Assembly: GCA_947476825.1 (NCBI GenBank)
Contig: CANJRV010000003.1
Span: 1 to 64,000 of the forward strand
Origin: Bacteroidota bacterium
GTDB lineage: Bacteria > Bacteroidota > Bacteroidia > Chitinophagales > Chitinophagaceae
Length of the DNA stretch: 64,000 bases
Reading direction: 5' to 3'
A program made the position numbers and the translations under genes. Under the pieces are notes generated by a model, which was not told where the DNA came from, searched no databases, and was given only the letters and a program-made list of their open reading frames with translations. This document shows positions 17,275 to 47,570 of this stretch, piece by piece; the first letter of the stretch is position 1; each line of letters opens with the position of its first letter.

Positions 17275-17424
17275 ATAATAAAATTACAAGCATTTTACTC
17301 ATTTTATTTATTGCTAACTGCATTCATAATTTTCAATTTGTCTACGATTAAAAGAATAATAAATATGGACAAGGCCATGACAAGTGATGTAAATACAATG
17401 ACTGCGAAGTATTTAATTTACTCC

Positions 17425-19105: not shown

Positions 19106-19188
19106 GCATTGCGGCAACGATTGCAACGGAAATCCTTTTTGCTGCGGAGCAAGAAAAAAGATTGAAGTGGAAAGCGTGTACGCCGCCC
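19106..19188 (+). repeat. dispersed nested-palindrome element, copy A
   Basis: gcattgcggcaacgattgcaacggaaatcctttttgctgcggagcaagaaaaaagattgaagtggaaagcgtgtacgccgccc; aligns without gaps to 47488-47570. Confidence 0.85.
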
Positions 19189-22902: not shown

Positions 22903-22951
22903 TGAGTGCTTAGCGTTACTTATTTATATTCCTAAGTATAAATGGCGTACA

Positions 22952-25825: not shown

Positions 25826-27520
25826 ATGAAAAAAATATTTCTGCTTGTCGCCCTTTCGATTGTTGCTATCCACTCTCATGCACAATCTGGTTTTATGAAA
25901 AGGAATGCAGATGATGCTTTTCTCATTGATAGATTAGACGTGCTTAGTGGTCGACTTTCCGATTCTTTATATACTACTTTACAAGGAATGCCGCGGAAAG
26001 ATGTTGTGCAGTTCGTAGAAAAATATTTAAGTACACATGAGTATACTTTAAGCGAAAATGAAAAGTATGATTTAAAACTTATCCTTTCCAAAAATGGAGA
26101 ATGGACTATCAGTGGAGAAGGCGCTATTAACGCTAAAAAGCCCATCAGAGGTCAATTGTATGAAAAGAAACCAGACATGCTTAATATCCATAAAGATGAG
26201 TTTGACCTTATTATTAATCCAATTATTTATTATCAACAAACAGCAGAGAAGGGGAATTTAAAAGAAATATTATTTGTGAATACGAAAGGTATAGAAGTAC
26301 GTGGCAATATTGGAAAACGAATTGGTTTTTATTCTACCTTCACGGATAATCAAGAACGTGGACCTTTGAATCACCAGAATTATGTAGCACATTATAGTGC
26401 AGTTCCAGGTGGACCAACGTATTACAAAGATTTTAAAATTGGCAAACCAGGTATTGCGCAAGATTATTTAAACGCAACTGGTTATGTAGATTTGAATGTA
26501 TACAAAAATAAAATCACAGCCGCTTATGGTCAAGATCATTTTCAAATTGGTGATGGCTATCGAAGTTTATTCTTAAGTGATTTTGGCAGCAATTATACCT
26601 TTTTCAAATTGAATACTAGGTTTTGGAAATTCAATTACCAAAATTTATACATGGAACTTACGCCACAATTTAAACGTGGTGGAGACAAATTATTAAGTAA
26701 GAAATATGCGACTATGCATCACTTGAGTATCAATGTGACTAAAAAATTAAATGTTGGTGTTTTTGAAAGCATCACATTTGGACGACAAAATTTTTATGAT
26801 TTCTCCTACATGAATCCTGTTATTTTCTTACGAAGTATGGAGCAAAAAAATGGTAGTCCCGATAATGCCATGTTGGGTTTAAATTTTAAGGCAAGCACCC
26901 CTTTTCATTCTGTAGTTTACGGACAAGTAATATTAGATGAATTTAAACTAGCAGAAATAAAAGCACGCAATGGTTGGTGGGGAAATAAGTACGGTATTCA
27001 ATTAGGATGTAAGATTGCGGATCCATTCCGTATTAAAAATTTATTGGTTCAAGGAGAGATTAATATGGTAAGACCATTCACCTATACCTTCCGTGATTCG
27101 GTTGCCAATTACACGCATTATAATCAAGTGCTTGCTCATCCTTATGAAGCTAATTTTATTGAAGCGAACTTCATTGTGAGTTACAAACCATTCAAGAAAA
27201 CATATATCACTTTCAAAACCTTCTATAATCGTCATGGTAGAGATTCGGTAAATGCACCAAAAACCTACGGCGGTAATATTTTCACTTCGTATTCTAATCT
27301 AAAATCGAAATATGGCAATAGCCTATTACAAGGTTATGTTTCGAAGGTTATGTATGGCAATTTAAATTTGTCTTATGAATTAAGAAATAGTTTATTCTTA
27401 GATTTGGGATTGACGTATAGATCAGAAAGCTCAACATCCAAATCTAATCCTACCTTCAACAGTACACAAGTGTATACAGGTCTTCGTTTGAATGCGCTTC
27501 GTAGACAATATGATTATTAG
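25826..27520 (+). CDS. outer-membrane beta-barrel protein, possibly RemB/Wzi-like
   Basis: 564 aa; signal peptide, GNIGKRIGFYSTFTDNQERGP...GYVDLNVYKNKITAAYGQDHFQIGDGYRSLFLSDFGSNYTFFKL; family name tentative. Confidence 0.65.
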   Translation: MKKIFLLVALSIVAIHSHAQSGFMKRNADDAFLIDRLDVLSGRLSDSLYTTLQGMPRKDVVQFVEKYLSTHEYTLSENEKYDLKLILSKNGEWTISGEGAINAKKPIRGQLYEKKPDMLNIHKDEFDLIINPIIYYQQTAEKGNLKEILFVNTKGIEVRGNIGKRIGFYSTFTDNQERGPLNHQNYVAHYSAVPGGPTYYKDFKIGKPGIAQDYLNATGYVDLNVYKNKITAAYGQDHFQIGDGYRSLFLSDFGSNYTFFKLNTRFWKFNYQNLYMELTPQFKRGGDKLLSKKYATMHHLSINVTKKLNVGVFESITFGRQNFYDFSYMNPVIFLRSMEQKNGSPDNAMLGLNFKASTPFHSVVYGQVILDEFKLAEIKARNGWWGNKYGIQLGCKIADPFRIKNLLVQGEINMVRPFTYTFRDSVANYTHYNQVLAHPYEANFIEANFIVSYKPFKKTYITFKTFYNRHGRDSVNAPKTYGGNIFTSYSNLKSKYGNSLLQGYVSKVMYGNLNLSYELRNSLFLDLGLTYRSESSTSKSNPTFNSTQVYTGLRLNALRRQYDY

Positions 27521-27861
27521 AAAGAGGAATAAAAAAGTACACAACATTGCTCTATTGAATGGTGTCATCAACTAGCAACTTAAAATTTCGTTTGAGTAGA
27601 CCAACAGATAGAAAACAATTTATCTCAATAAGCCATAAGAATATTTTGCTGCCTAGCATAAAAAATGTTTCGTTCATCCTAAGTTTTCATGCTAGACATT
27701 TCATGCCATCGAAAACGTTTTCACAGTTTGTGTCAAACGAGGAATTCGAAGGTACAATGTTTCATCTTTATTCTAAATCTCAATAGAAAGAAAATGATGA
27801 GGATAGCAGAATGCCCCGCTTGAGCTAAACTGTGTGTTAGCGGTTCGGTTTTCCTTGTATT

Positions 27862-28494
27862 CTATTTTTCAGATATAGCAATGTACTTTTTTAATTCTGT
27901 TTGCTTTTCTGCTTGTTTTATTAAAAAGTCTGCTACGTCAGCTCTATTAATTCCGCCTATATTAATTCCTTTGAATAATTTATTTTCAATACGGTATTTC
28001 TCTGTCAATTCCTTGTCTAATAGCCTTCCTGGTCTCACAACTGTCCAATTCAGATCGGAATTAGTTATAATTTCTTCCATTTTAGTTTTGTCAGCATAAA
28101 CGTCTTTTAAAAAGTATTTTAAAAACATCTTTACAAGCCAAGAAACATAATTTTTACTTTCTCCAGCTCCAAATCCTGTAACAAAAATAAATGGAATATC
28201 TATTTTATGCTCCCTGTGTATTTCCACAATTAATTTTGCAAAATCTGAAAAAAGGGTAGTCGATTTCATATTCTTCCCAGTCCCCAATGTTATAATTAGA
28301 GCATCTGCGTTTTGGATTGCATTTAATACGTCAGCTTTGTTAGTCGCATCACCAAGTATCATTTTTATCGATTTTTTCTCTTGTATTTCAATTTCAGATC
28401 GAGAAATGGTCGTAATCGAATGATTTCTATTTAATCCTCTTTTTACTGTTTCTAGTCCAATTCCAGCCGAGGCTCCTATAATTGTTATATTCAT
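27862..28494 (-). CDS. NAD(P)H-binding protein (atypical SDR)
   Basis: 210 aa; ITIIGASAGIGLETV, ALIITLGTG, WTVVRPGRL. Confidence 0.88.
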   Translation of the reverse strand: MNITIIGASAGIGLETVKRGLNRNHSITTISRSEIEIQEKKSIKMILGDATNKADVLNAIQNADALIITLGTGKNMKSTTLFSDFAKLIVEIHREHKIDIPFIFVTGFGAGESKNYVSWLVKMFLKYFLKDVYADKTKMEEIITNSDLNWTVVRPGRLLDKELTEKYRIENKLFKGINIGGINRADVADFLIKQAEKQTELKKYIAISEK

Positions 28495-28541
28495 TTTGGT
28501 TTTGATCGATTTTGGTTTTGAGCTGACCGCTAACTTAGTTG

Positions 28542-28960
28542 TTAGAGGTGGTTTATTTCATTTAAGTAATCTGTTATGTTAAGTATTCTTGTTTCTTCAA
28601 TCTTATCAAGTACAAGTAAATCGTTATCATTGGTGATTAGATAATTGGCCTTTGAATCTATAGCTAGGGATAAAAGAAAGCTGTCATTTGGATCTCGACA
28701 TATTTCTACAGAAGTTGTGACTGTAAAAACCTCTGAATAATTCTCAAGGAGTCTCATAAAATCTATCACGTGTTGGAATGGGAAGTACTTTCTGAATTTA
28801 TCTCTTTGTGTAACTGAAATAACTCATTGATGGATTCATTGCTGAATAATAATATTAGACCTTCATACAGAAAGTAATTTTCTATAAAATTCTGTTTTCG
28901 ATTAATTAAAAAGTTTATCCAAATATTGGTATCTACAATTACCTTATTTCCTGCTTTCAT
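28542..28960 (-). pseudogene. PIN domain toxin split by a 1-nt frameshift
   Basis: KVIVDTNIWINFLINRK...SNESINELFQ in one frame, VTQRDKFRKYFPFQHVIDFMRLLENYSEVFTVTTSVEICRDPNDSFLLSLAIDSKANYLITNDNDLLVLDKIEETRILNITDYLNEINHL in the next; break near 28812-28818. Confidence 0.85.
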
Positions 28961-29165
28961 AACGTTCTGCCCTGACTTTCTTGACTTCTTCAGTTATTTC
29001 TTCCATATTAGGTATTTCACCTTCAGCTTTTTTTCGGAAGCCTTCAACGATTTCAAGAAATTTTTTGTTTGTCTTCTCTTTGATGGAAATCAAATTCAAA
29101 TCAGCAAGATCATTAATGAGCTTTTCCGCTTTTGGGTTCAATATTTCAATTTCTAGGATATTCAT
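28944..29165 (-). CDS. antitoxin partner of the PIN domain toxin
   Basis: 73 aa charged ORF upstream of and overlapping the toxin start by 17 nt. Confidence 0.7.
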   Translation of the reverse strand: MNILEIEILNPKAEKLINDLADLNLISIKEKTNKKFLEIVEGFRKKAEGEIPNMEEITEEVKKVRAERYESRK

Positions 29166-29240
29166 TTTGCTAAGATAACAAATAATAATTCGATCTATGA
29201 TTTTCTACGAAGAGAATTGGATAAGAAAATAAAATGCATA

Positions 29241-31247: not shown

Positions 31248-34200
31248 ATGAAAAAAACAATCTTCTTTTTAATTCTTACTCTTTGTTGTATCAAAAACAC
31301 GATGGCACAAATATATACTGGCTCGCCAGCCATTGGTATACGGATTGATACGCTAAATTTCACTACGCCAACCCCTATCAATAATGGACCTAGTTTAATT
31401 ACTAATTTTTATCTAGACTGTGATAGCATACCCAATATGAAAATATATGATAACTATTACAATTATTATTCACCTTCCTTTCACCTTTATAGGGGTTCGA
31501 ATTTAAGTTTTCTTGATACTAATTTACAATGTGGATTTGTTGTATTTAATCAGTCTCTACCTCCAGTAAATTTCCTACGAACAGATAGCTTAAATGCTGG
31601 CTATTTATTAAATAATAATTCTCTAATTAATTGGATAACACCAAATCAATTAGTAATCGCTAGTCATTACATTTCATCAGTTTCTAATTTAGACTATACA
31701 ACAGGTTTTGTTAACAAATATATTCCTATCAGAAAAAAATATGGGACAGAGTATTTATATGGTTGGATATATTTAACTTCTGACTTCAGTTCGAATTCCA
31801 TTTATAGTAGCACTACCATTCATCAAATTACCAAATTCCCGAAATTAAAAGTTATCCATGACACCTTAGCTTGTATCTCAACCTATACCTTCTTAGATGG
31901 ATTTACAATGAATAATGTTTTTCAAGATACTGTTTATGATTTTGCACTGCCGTCGAGTATAACAAATTGCGATAGTTTAGTAAGGACAAGATTGCATGCT
32001 AATTTTCAAAATTATGCTAATAATTATGATACAGTCTGTTTTGGAACAGCCTATACATTTTTAGATGGCATTAATCAGGTAGTAACAACAAATCCAACTA
32101 TTCATTTTAATAAATTTACTGCACAAAATGGATGTGATAGTATAATTAAAACCATCTTATATGTTCGTGCAAAAGATAGTAGTGATACAACGATTTACCT
32201 ACACTGTTTATCTAATTATACCTATCCCGATTTGATAAGCGAACAAAATATTTTATTTGATACATTTCATGTAAGTCATTTTATAAACCAATTTGGCTGT
32301 GACAGTTTAATTACCACCAACCTTATTGTAACCTACGATACAACAATTGAAGTAGTTAATATATGCAAAGGAAGTAGTTATACATTTCTTGATGCAACAG
32401 TCGTAAGTAATATCCAAACAAATATTTTTCATGTGAATCATTTTGTTTCTATGTTCGGTTGTGATAGTTTAATAATAACTAATCTTCATGTGAAGCCAAC
32501 TTTTAGCCAAAACGAAACCATAAATTTATGTAGTGGAAGTAACTATACTTTTCATGATGGAGTAGTTTTAAATAATATCATTGCAGACACCTTTCATACA
32601 AGCCATTTGATTTCGTCATTCGGTTGCGATAGTGTAATTACAACTAATCTTCAAGTGAATCCAACTTATAATCAAAATGAAAGTAGTAGTATATGTAGTG
32701 GAAGTAATTATACTTTTCATGATGGAGTAGTTTTAAATAATATAATTGCAGACACCTTTCATACAAGCCATTTGCTTTCCTCATTCAGCTGCGATAGTGC
32801 AATTACAACTTATCTTCAAGTGAATCCAACTTACAATCAAAATGAAAGTAGTAGTATATGTAGTGGAAGTAATTATACTTTTCATGATGGAGTAGTTTTA
32901 AATAATATCATTGCAGACACCTTTCATACAAGCCATTTGATTTCTTCATTCGGTTGCGATAGTATGATTACAACTTATCTTCATGTTAATCCAACTTTTA
33001 GCCAAACAGAAAGTACTAGCTTGTGTAAAGGAAGTAATTATACTTTCCTTGATGGTGTAATATTTTCCAATATTCTTTCTGACACATCACACGTAAGCCA
33101 TTTAGTTTCGACATTTGGTTGTGATAGCACGATGACAACTAATCTTCATATTCAACCAACCTACAACCAAATAGAAAATATTAATTTATGTTTTGGCAAT
33201 AATTATACTTTCTATGATGGTGTTATTTTTTCAAACATTGTGTCAGACACATCACACGTAAGCCATTTAGTTTCGACATTTGGTTGTGATAGCACGATTA
33301 CAACTAATCTTCATATCAACCCAATATACAACCAAACAGAAAATATTAATTTATGCAGTGGTAATAATTACACTTTTTATGATGGAATCGTTTTTTCAAA
33401 TATCATGGCAGATACTTCACACGCTAGCCACTTAGTTTCTGTGTCAGGTTGTGATAGCACGATGACAACTAATCTTCATATCAACCCAGCATTCAATCAA
33501 ACTGAAAATATTAATTTATGCGTTGGCAATAATTATACTTTCCATGATGGAATTATATTTTCAAATATTATTTCAGATACTTCACACGTAAGCCATTTAG
33601 TTTCGATATCAGGTTGTGATAGTATTATTACAACTCATCTTCATATTCAACCAACCTATAACCAATCAGAAAATATTAATTTATGCATTGGCAATAATTA
33701 TACTTTCTATGATGGAATCGTTTTTTCAAATATCATGGCAGATACTTCACACGTAAGCCATTTAGTTTCGATATCAGGTTGTGATAGTATTATTACAACA
33801 ATTTTGACCATAGCAACAATAGATACTAGCGTTACCCAATTTGGAACTCAACTTACATCCAATGCGCAAAACATAAATTATCAATGGTTCGATTGTACTA
33901 ACCAATTCATTTTAATTGGTGATACAAACCAAATTTATGTAGCTTCCCAAAATGGGACTTACGCAGTTATTTTGAACAATGGTTCGTGCATTGATACTTC
34001 TTCTTGTTATCCAGTAAACAGCGTTTCTGTAAACGATTTTACCAAAGAAAATCAAATTCTGATTTACCCTAATCCAACAAATTCTATACTCAATATAGAA
34101 ATTAAAAATTTAAATATTAGCCATTCCAATATGGAAGCCACATTATGTAACACGCTTGGAGAGGTTCTTTTAAAAGAAAAAATAAAACCCAATGGCAAGG

Positions 34201-34283
34201 CGCAGTTTAGTGTTTCTACTTTAAGTAGTGGCGTATATTATATCCGATGCGAAGGATATTGTAGGAAGATTATTAAAGAGTAA
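31248..34283 (+). CDS. repeat-rich T9SS type A secreted surface protein
   Basis: 1011 aa; about eleven ~55-aa units of form C.GSNYTFHDGVVLNNIIADTFHTSHLISSFGCDS.ITTNL.VNP; C-terminal LIYPNPTNSILNIEI...SSGVYYIRCEGYCRKIIKE. Confidence 0.92.
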   Translation: MKKTIFFLILTLCCIKNTMAQIYTGSPAIGIRIDTLNFTTPTPINNGPSLITNFYLDCDSIPNMKIYDNYYNYYSPSFHLYRGSNLSFLDTNLQCGFVVFNQSLPPVNFLRTDSLNAGYLLNNNSLINWITPNQLVIASHYISSVSNLDYTTGFVNKYIPIRKKYGTEYLYGWIYLTSDFSSNSIYSSTTIHQITKFPKLKVIHDTLACISTYTFLDGFTMNNVFQDTVYDFALPSSITNCDSLVRTRLHANFQNYANNYDTVCFGTAYTFLDGINQVVTTNPTIHFNKFTAQNGCDSIIKTILYVRAKDSSDTTIYLHCLSNYTYPDLISEQNILFDTFHVSHFINQFGCDSLITTNLIVTYDTTIEVVNICKGSSYTFLDATVVSNIQTNIFHVNHFVSMFGCDSLIITNLHVKPTFSQNETINLCSGSNYTFHDGVVLNNIIADTFHTSHLISSFGCDSVITTNLQVNPTYNQNESSSICSGSNYTFHDGVVLNNIIADTFHTSHLLSSFSCDSAITTYLQVNPTYNQNESSSICSGSNYTFHDGVVLNNIIADTFHTSHLISSFGCDSMITTYLHVNPTFSQTESTSLCKGSNYTFLDGVIFSNILSDTSHVSHLVSTFGCDSTMTTNLHIQPTYNQIENINLCFGNNYTFYDGVIFSNIVSDTSHVSHLVSTFGCDSTITTNLHINPIYNQTENINLCSGNNYTFYDGIVFSNIMADTSHASHLVSVSGCDSTMTTNLHINPAFNQTENINLCVGNNYTFHDGIIFSNIISDTSHVSHLVSISGCDSIITTHLHIQPTYNQSENINLCIGNNYTFYDGIVFSNIMADTSHVSHLVSISGCDSIITTILTIATIDTSVTQFGTQLTSNAQNINYQWFDCTNQFILIGDTNQIYVASQNGTYAVILNNGSCIDTSSCYPVNSVSVNDFTKENQILIYPNPTNSILNIEIKNLNISHSNMEATLCNTLGEVLLKEKIKPNGKAQFSVSTLSSGVYYIRCEGYCRKIIKE

Positions 34284-36240: not shown

Positions 36241-36343
36241 CTTTTATATTTTTTAGAAGAGATAAATGTACAAGGATTTAAGAAAGGCACAGAACATTTT
36301 ATAGCACTCTTTAGAATGTAGCAAAAAATCTACTCTTATGCTC

Positions 36344-36430
36344 TAGCGCATTTTTTGAAAAAAAAATAATGCTACAGTCTAATGGTGTAGCGTATTTTTT
36401 GAAAAAAAAATTAATGCTACAGTATGGGCG
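36344..36430. repeat. two tandem copies (44-bp period) of an A/T-rich hairpin unit
   Basis: tagcgcattttttgaaaaaaaaataatgctacagt at 36344 and tagcgtattttttgaaaaaaaaattaatgctacagt at 36388. Confidence 0.8.
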
Positions 36431-36560
36431 GCATAGACGTCCTGATGATAAATGTCAGGATCTGTTACCGCTCAAAGCAGCGGAATCAAGACTTTCCATT
36501 CCAATCTTTTTGCTTGCTTCGCCGCAAAAAGGATTTCCATTTCAATCGTTGCCGCAATGC
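36426..36560 (-). repeat. dispersed nested-palindrome element, copy B (expanded 3' half)
   Basis: - strand reads gcattgcggcaacgattgaaatggaaatcctttttgcggcgaagcaagcaaaaagattggaatggaaagtc...tatgccgccc. Confidence 0.83.
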
Positions 36561-47310: not shown

Positions 47311-47487
47311 AAAATAAACTAAAAATTTAGTTCTATACGAAATCCCTTTTGTTTAATAGTTTCATTTTGTTGCCTTCAACAACACATTATTCTATCCTAT
47401 GAAAATTTCCATTTTGAAAAACAATATTTCTTTCTAAAAATTTCTAAACTAAACCTGTTATGAAAGGAAAAGTACTTAGGTGCAGTT

Positions 47488-47570
47488 GTATTGCGGCAAC
47501 GATAGTAGTGAAAATCCTTTTTGCTTGCTTTGAAGCAAAAAGATTGGAACGGATAGCGTGCATGCCGCCC
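47488..47570 (+). repeat. dispersed nested-palindrome element, copy C
   Basis: gtattgcggcaacgatagtagtgaaaatcctttttgcttgctttgaagcaaaaagattggaacggatagcgtgcatgccgccc; inner palindrome ctttttgctt/aagcaaaaag. Confidence 0.87.

Follow-up and report, generated by a model that had tools for sequence, protein, structure and literature searches.

A Flavo-1 hairpin as the probable cargo of a short non-autonomous transposable element in Bacteroidota

What kind of element is the 83-bp segment at positions 19106-19188 (copy A) of the 64,000-nucleotide stretch of bacteroidotal DNA analyzed here (the window), which has two relatives within the same stretch? The first-pass annotation aligned it without gaps to 47488-47570 (copy B), with 63 of the 83 positions identical, and an ungapped scan of the window returns exactly this count. 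In the same scan, a minus-strand segment at ~36480-36560 (copy C) is identical to copy A at 68/83 positions, against a noise level of at most 40 for unrelated positions on the plus strand, 48 for one minus-strand position and 43 for the best of 50 shuffled queries. The relatedness of the minus-strand copy is genuine, and the greater length of the span assigned to it, 36426-36560, is due to a ~50-bp hairpin module inserted between the second arm and the right outer arm. All three copies are flanked by ORFs on both sides, and none lies inside a gene, in agreement with the intergenic location initially noticed. The outer and inner inverted repeats that had been described can both be located in copy A (Table 1), and the arms indeed resemble direct repeats, yet the long arms pair with each other across internal loops of the G.A type.

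No named family had been recognized in these repeats, and a match to a catalogued Rfam family had been listed in advance among the outcomes that would speak against the proposed structured mobile or RNA element. Such a match exists: in an Rfam 15 scan of the window, copies A and B score above the gathering score (GA) of 42 bits for RF01705 (Flavo-1 RNA), and copy C falls just below this cut-off (Table 1). Flavo-1 was predicted computationally in 2010 by comparative genomics (Weinberg et al. 2010, PMC2864571) and counts as one of the most abundant ‘sRNA’ families (PMC9029176). The genome-wide search for copies that had been suggested yields 148 Flavo-1 matches, 143 of them over the cut-off, in the genome from which the window comes (G000; 3.3 Mb, 184 contigs). 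The counts in the congeners are at least 87 in the sister species G001 (a filtered count), 59 in G002, 30 in G006, 8 in G003 and 1 in G007. Across the sampled genomes of the class, 135 out of 389 contain a match and 254 have none. Both G000 and G001 are draft assemblies; the more distant G224, considered below, is a complete genome.

Table 1. Coordinates of the Flavo-1 copies and associated features in the window.
Feature	Position	Strand	Basis
Copy A, Flavo-1 (RF01705) core hairpin	19109..19185	+	52.1 bits; DNA fold z -0.47
Copy A, left outer stem GCGGC	19111..19115	+	sequence
Copy A, right outer stem GCCGC	19182..19186	+	sequence
Copy A, inner arms	19131-19142 / 19153-19163	+	sequence
Copy B, Flavo-1 core hairpin	47491..47567	+	62.1 bits; DNA fold z -4.4
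Left TIR, partly decayed, of the MITE carrying copy B	47442..47463	+	17/22 match to GGCTAAACTAAAAATGTAATGA
Copy C, Flavo-1 core	36480..36557	-	41.9 bits (GA 42); 73.5 bits with model R1
Nested hairpin module of ~50 bp (TTCCGCTGCTTTGAGCGG... TCCTGAC...CAGGA) in copy C	36440..36491	-	present/absent between G000/G001 orthologues
Tandem pair of ~37-bp palindromes CTGTAGCATTA...AATACGCTACA, adjoining copy C on its downstream side	36341..36423	-	sequence

The conserved unit does not end with the Flavo-1 core. When the copies from G000 and G001 are aligned together with their flanks, the conservation extends to 22-bp terminal inverted repeats (TIRs), GGCTAAACTAAAAATGTAATGA, so that the 83-bp unit is only the core of a ~160-bp element. 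The TIR pattern GGCTAWACTAAAAATGTAATGA, with up to 3 mismatches, has 35 matches in the genome compared with 0 for the reversed control, and with up to 2 mismatches, it is found only in G000 and G001 among 14 congeners. The sizes of the elements cluster at 156–162 bp, with inserts in several longer ones. Empty sites and target duplications, both of which had been proposed as signs of mobility to look for, are found. In three partly overlapping sets, the flanks of the elements carry a target site duplication (TSD) of 8 bp: for 41 elements, flank identity at k=8 is 0.53 compared with 0.36 in shuffled pairs (z 6.6), and other lengths stay close to background; for 18 elements, after removal of orthologous duplicates and tightening of the ends, z is 4.6 (0/2000 shuffles); and for 28 loci located by the TIR alone across the two genomes, z is 6.5 at k=8 (0/2000) and below 1.5 at all other lengths. 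Perfect 8/8 duplications include TTTCATTT, AATGGTAA and GGTTAGAG. The single clean empty site is TGCTTAGT in G000, with one 8-bp target, as opposed to TGTTTAAT-element-TGTTTTAT in G001, where the insertion starts at C1:218877 and adjoins the Flavo-1 copy of locus L010; it is absent from the L010 locus of G000. The element combines several features of a MITE, namely shared TIRs, a TSD of fixed length and insertion polymorphism with an empty site (one clean case). A presence/absence difference in Flavobacterium (L077) was set aside because it adjoins a RAYT repeat array, which makes its boundaries ambiguous.

The two species are ~94% identical, and contig C6 of G001 is collinear with the window, with long matches at 91–97% identity. 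Because 26 of the 27 resolved Flavo-1 sites of G000 are common to G001, most of the insertions are older than the species split, which accounts for the finding of just one clean polymorphic insertion. Copy A itself is old: its site is orthologous in G001, with a length difference of 0, and its flanking TIRs are decayed, as are the ends of all three window copies. Other differences between the window and G001 include a ~1.8-kb segment (27461-29231) that replaces a short G001 interval bearing a Flavo-1 copy; ~100-bp indels at 17319-17420 and 22906-22948, which are not Flavo-1 matches; and internal repeats of several hundred bases at 32259-33800, within the ORF 31248-34283 (1011 aa), which produce many overlapping matches to one G001 stretch.

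Taken together, these features make it very probable that a non-autonomous transposable element of ~160 bp has this segment as its core and that, in G000 and G001, the Flavo-1 hairpin is the cargo of a MITE. The combination of TIRs and TSDs points to transposition of the DDE type in this lineage: the 22-bp inverted ends GGCTAAACTAAAAATGTAATGA enclose the Rfam Flavo-1 hairpin as the interior, and a putative DDE-type transposase would act on these ends in trans and make cuts staggered by 8 bp in the target, thereby multiplying the hairpin as cargo. No autonomous element with GGCTAAACTAAAAATG ends was found, as none of the TIR matches examined bears a transposase. The ISL3 and IS1595 transposases of the genus were considered as possible parents of the MITE and rejected, given that their ends differ.

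The distinction between ends and interior is reinforced by a second MITE family that has the same TIR but a different interior, CCCTTCTCC...GGAGAAGGG, which implies that the ends are the mobile part and the interior is cargo. Taken alone, this family remains below significance in the 8-bp test (8 elements, z 1.6). At its loci (L227, L232, L281, L284, L287-L290), the interior is palindromic, GCTCCCTTCTCC...GGAGAAGGG...GGGGATGAGGTC. The Flavo-1 elements, in turn, host further palindromes. Orthologues in G000 and G001 differ in whether the element contains the ~50-bp hairpin module and in the tandem ~37-bp palindromes that directly follow GCCGCCC. Of 17 such modules, 16 are no more than 220 bp from a Flavo-1 core match, and 49 of the 55 palindrome units CTGTAGCATTA...AATACGCTACAG in the G000/G001 tiles come directly after a Flavo-1 element, on the downstream side of its GCCGCCC end. 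In G224 (L299, L323-L330), the apical loop of the Flavo-1 hairpins often contains yet another palindrome, of the CTGAG...CTCGAAG type, resulting in nested repeats.

Outside these two species, the hairpin occurs without the MITE. The copies of this hairpin in G002 and G006 lack the MITE ends and have short conserved tails, TTGTATT...AAATAAA; the many copies in G224 are mostly hairpins of 85–115 bp; and in G025, the flanks of Flavo-1 are conserved yet different. In low-power searches at fixed offsets, no TSD was detected for 26 stand-alone copies of G002/G006 or for 23 copies of G224. When the search is performed at fixed offsets without the TIR anchor, the signal is absent in G025 and in the main family as well, although the TIR-anchored test of the latter is positive, so the fixed-offset version is insensitive to indels at the ends. 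In one lineage, Flavo-1 is carried by a MITE; in others, it is a dispersed palindrome that stands alone. The many copies in congeners that lack these ends and a detectable TSD indicate that the hairpin exists independently of the MITE, and since the forms in other lineages lack the ends, the hairpin core would most simply predate the MITE that carries it here.

A RAYT transposase was considered as the partner of Flavo-1. On this account, Flavo-1 would be a REP-type repeat of the Bacteroidetes RAYTs (TnpAY1 subclass 2.6, RAYT group 5), mobilized as ssDNA, in line with the first-pass suggestion of a RAYT-like transposase acting in trans. Flavo-1 is palindromic, intergenic and present in many copies, its stand-alone form has no detected TSD, two of the five RAYT-like genes in the genome have a Flavo-1 copy nearby, and atypical repeats have been reported around TnpAY1 of subclass 2.6 in Bacteroidetes (PMC6006769). 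The tetranucleotide GT[AG]G is absent 5' at the foot of the hairpin, where the stand-alone ends read TTGTATT-hairpin-AAATAAA, but this alone would not exclude subclass 2.6, the repeats of which also lack GT[AG]G (PMC6006769). However, among the RAYT loci of relatives, Flavo-1 is present in the flanks (up to 5 kb) of only 2 out of 80; by our estimate, the proximity of RAYTs to Flavo-1 in Flavo-1-rich genomes is about that expected from copy density; and most of the inspected RAYT loci, with the one beside Flavo-1 among them, have inverted hairpin repeats of their own on either side, which differ from Flavo-1. The RAYT/REP link is accordingly rejected as highly improbable. Apart from Flavo-1, subclass 2.6-like RAYT genes of Bacteroidota are commonly located between inverted double-hairpin repeats, e.g. 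CTCTGCGAAGTCTCCAGACTTCGCAG (L043, L044, L046-L127, L401, L405, L408, L412, L414), which resemble the atypical REPs described in this subclass.

The stand-alone hairpin might spread by a different, TSD-free route, perhaps with the folded, purine-loop strand acting as ssDNA. It is conceivable, if rather doubtful, that it represents a class of mobile palindromic DNA of its own, in which one strand would be recognized as ssDNA via the paired GNA/GNA purine loops and inserted by a non-RAYT enzyme without target duplication, with repeated capture by conventional transposons and nested palindromes.

The fold itself is strongly constrained. In 16 diverse copies, the 17 pairs of the fold-back are formed in 97.7% of the cells, compared with 41–51% in slid controls, and 14 of the 17 pairs have changed on both sides; there is little or no variation in the A.G mismatch or in the unpaired G and A of the two GNA/GNA internal loops. 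As DNA, copy B folds stably relative to shuffled sequences and copy A does not (Table 1). Compensation and the near-invariant loops are what would be expected if Flavo-1 were a structured RNA, either an sRNA or a UTR element, that is transcribed at many loci and conserved for an RNA function, and some copies in Flavobacterium psychrophilum do lie within 5' transcribed regions (PMC9723704). Strong covariation in the core would also fit selection on an RNA and counts against the MITE reading, as do the lack of an autonomous element among the TIR matches examined, the sharing of most copies with G001, the decayed ends of the window copies and the draft state of both assemblies. Judged from the aligned copies, however, covariation shows selection on a folded strand, whether RNA or DNA; what it proves is a selected fold-back and not an RNA. 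Other evidence is at odds with an RNA function: the orientations of Flavo-1 with respect to neighboring genes in G000, by simple ORF calling, are ++ 8, -- 10, +- 7 and -+ 2, so that in tandem gene contexts, 8 sense and 10 antisense copies reveal no strand preference; in the F. psychrophilum transcriptome, the matches are sense or antisense of transcribed regions indifferently, and many are outside such regions (PMC9723704); and the copy number ranges from 1 to 148 among congeners. The lack of strand preference, the TIRs and TSDs in this lineage and the widely varying copy number jointly favor mobile DNA over RNA genes as the reading of the ~148 copies, and a primary role as a structured RNA is unlikely. 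Flavo-1 is probably not primarily an RNA gene, although some of the copies may be transcribed. The initial idea of a structured mobile element is supported by the 148 matches, the 14/17 compensated pairs, the empty site, the TIRs and the 8-bp TSDs.

A selected DNA fold could also reflect domestication by the host, whereby the Flavo-1 hairpins would serve as DNA sites (e.g. nucleoid, gyrase or terminator-like) under selection, with the capture by the MITE being incidental. The retention of most copies at orthologous sites in two species that are ~94% identical, the location of just 2 of the 27 G000 copies between divergent genes and the preservation of the G/A loops in the arms across families are compatible with such a role. 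Nevertheless, the absence of a significant fold in copy A, the wide swings in copy number, the lack of a match in 254 of the 389 sampled genomes of the class and the fact that no site-specific partner is known render domestication improbable. Mobile DNA, with the MITE as the carrier in this lineage, remains the preferred reading. Given that Flavo-1 is used in annotation, these annotations would read differently if transposons carry a large share of the copies and the others are dispersed palindromic repeats; the question raised is which enzyme recognizes the GNA-loop hairpin.

Among known systems, REPs and REPINs with their RAYTs (TnpAY1 subclass 2.6, PMC6006769) resemble Flavo-1 in being intergenic, imperfect palindromes with high copy numbers, and the stand-alone form shares with them the lack of a detected TSD. 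Flavo-1 differs from these systems in its sequence, which is unlike that of the RAYT-flanking repeats, in showing no association with RAYT genes and in the 8-bp TSDs of this lineage. The Rfam family RF01705 has the same sequence and structure model as the repeats described here, with 143 of the 148 genome matches over the threshold; it is an RNA entry, whereas here the hairpin lies inside a transposable element with TIRs and TSDs and is read as DNA repeat cargo. An earlier link between Flavo-1 and mobile elements was not found in the open-access literature, the scope of the search leaving out most subscription journals. Bacterial MITEs, such as RUP, ERIC and Correia/NEMIS, are short and non-coding, with TIRs, a target duplication and many intergenic copies, and the Flavo-1 element is similar in all these respects. 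Unlike these families, it has an 8-bp duplication and no assigned parent transposase, its cargo is also a stand-alone dispersed hairpin in relatives, and in this lineage, two unrelated interiors are found between the same ends.
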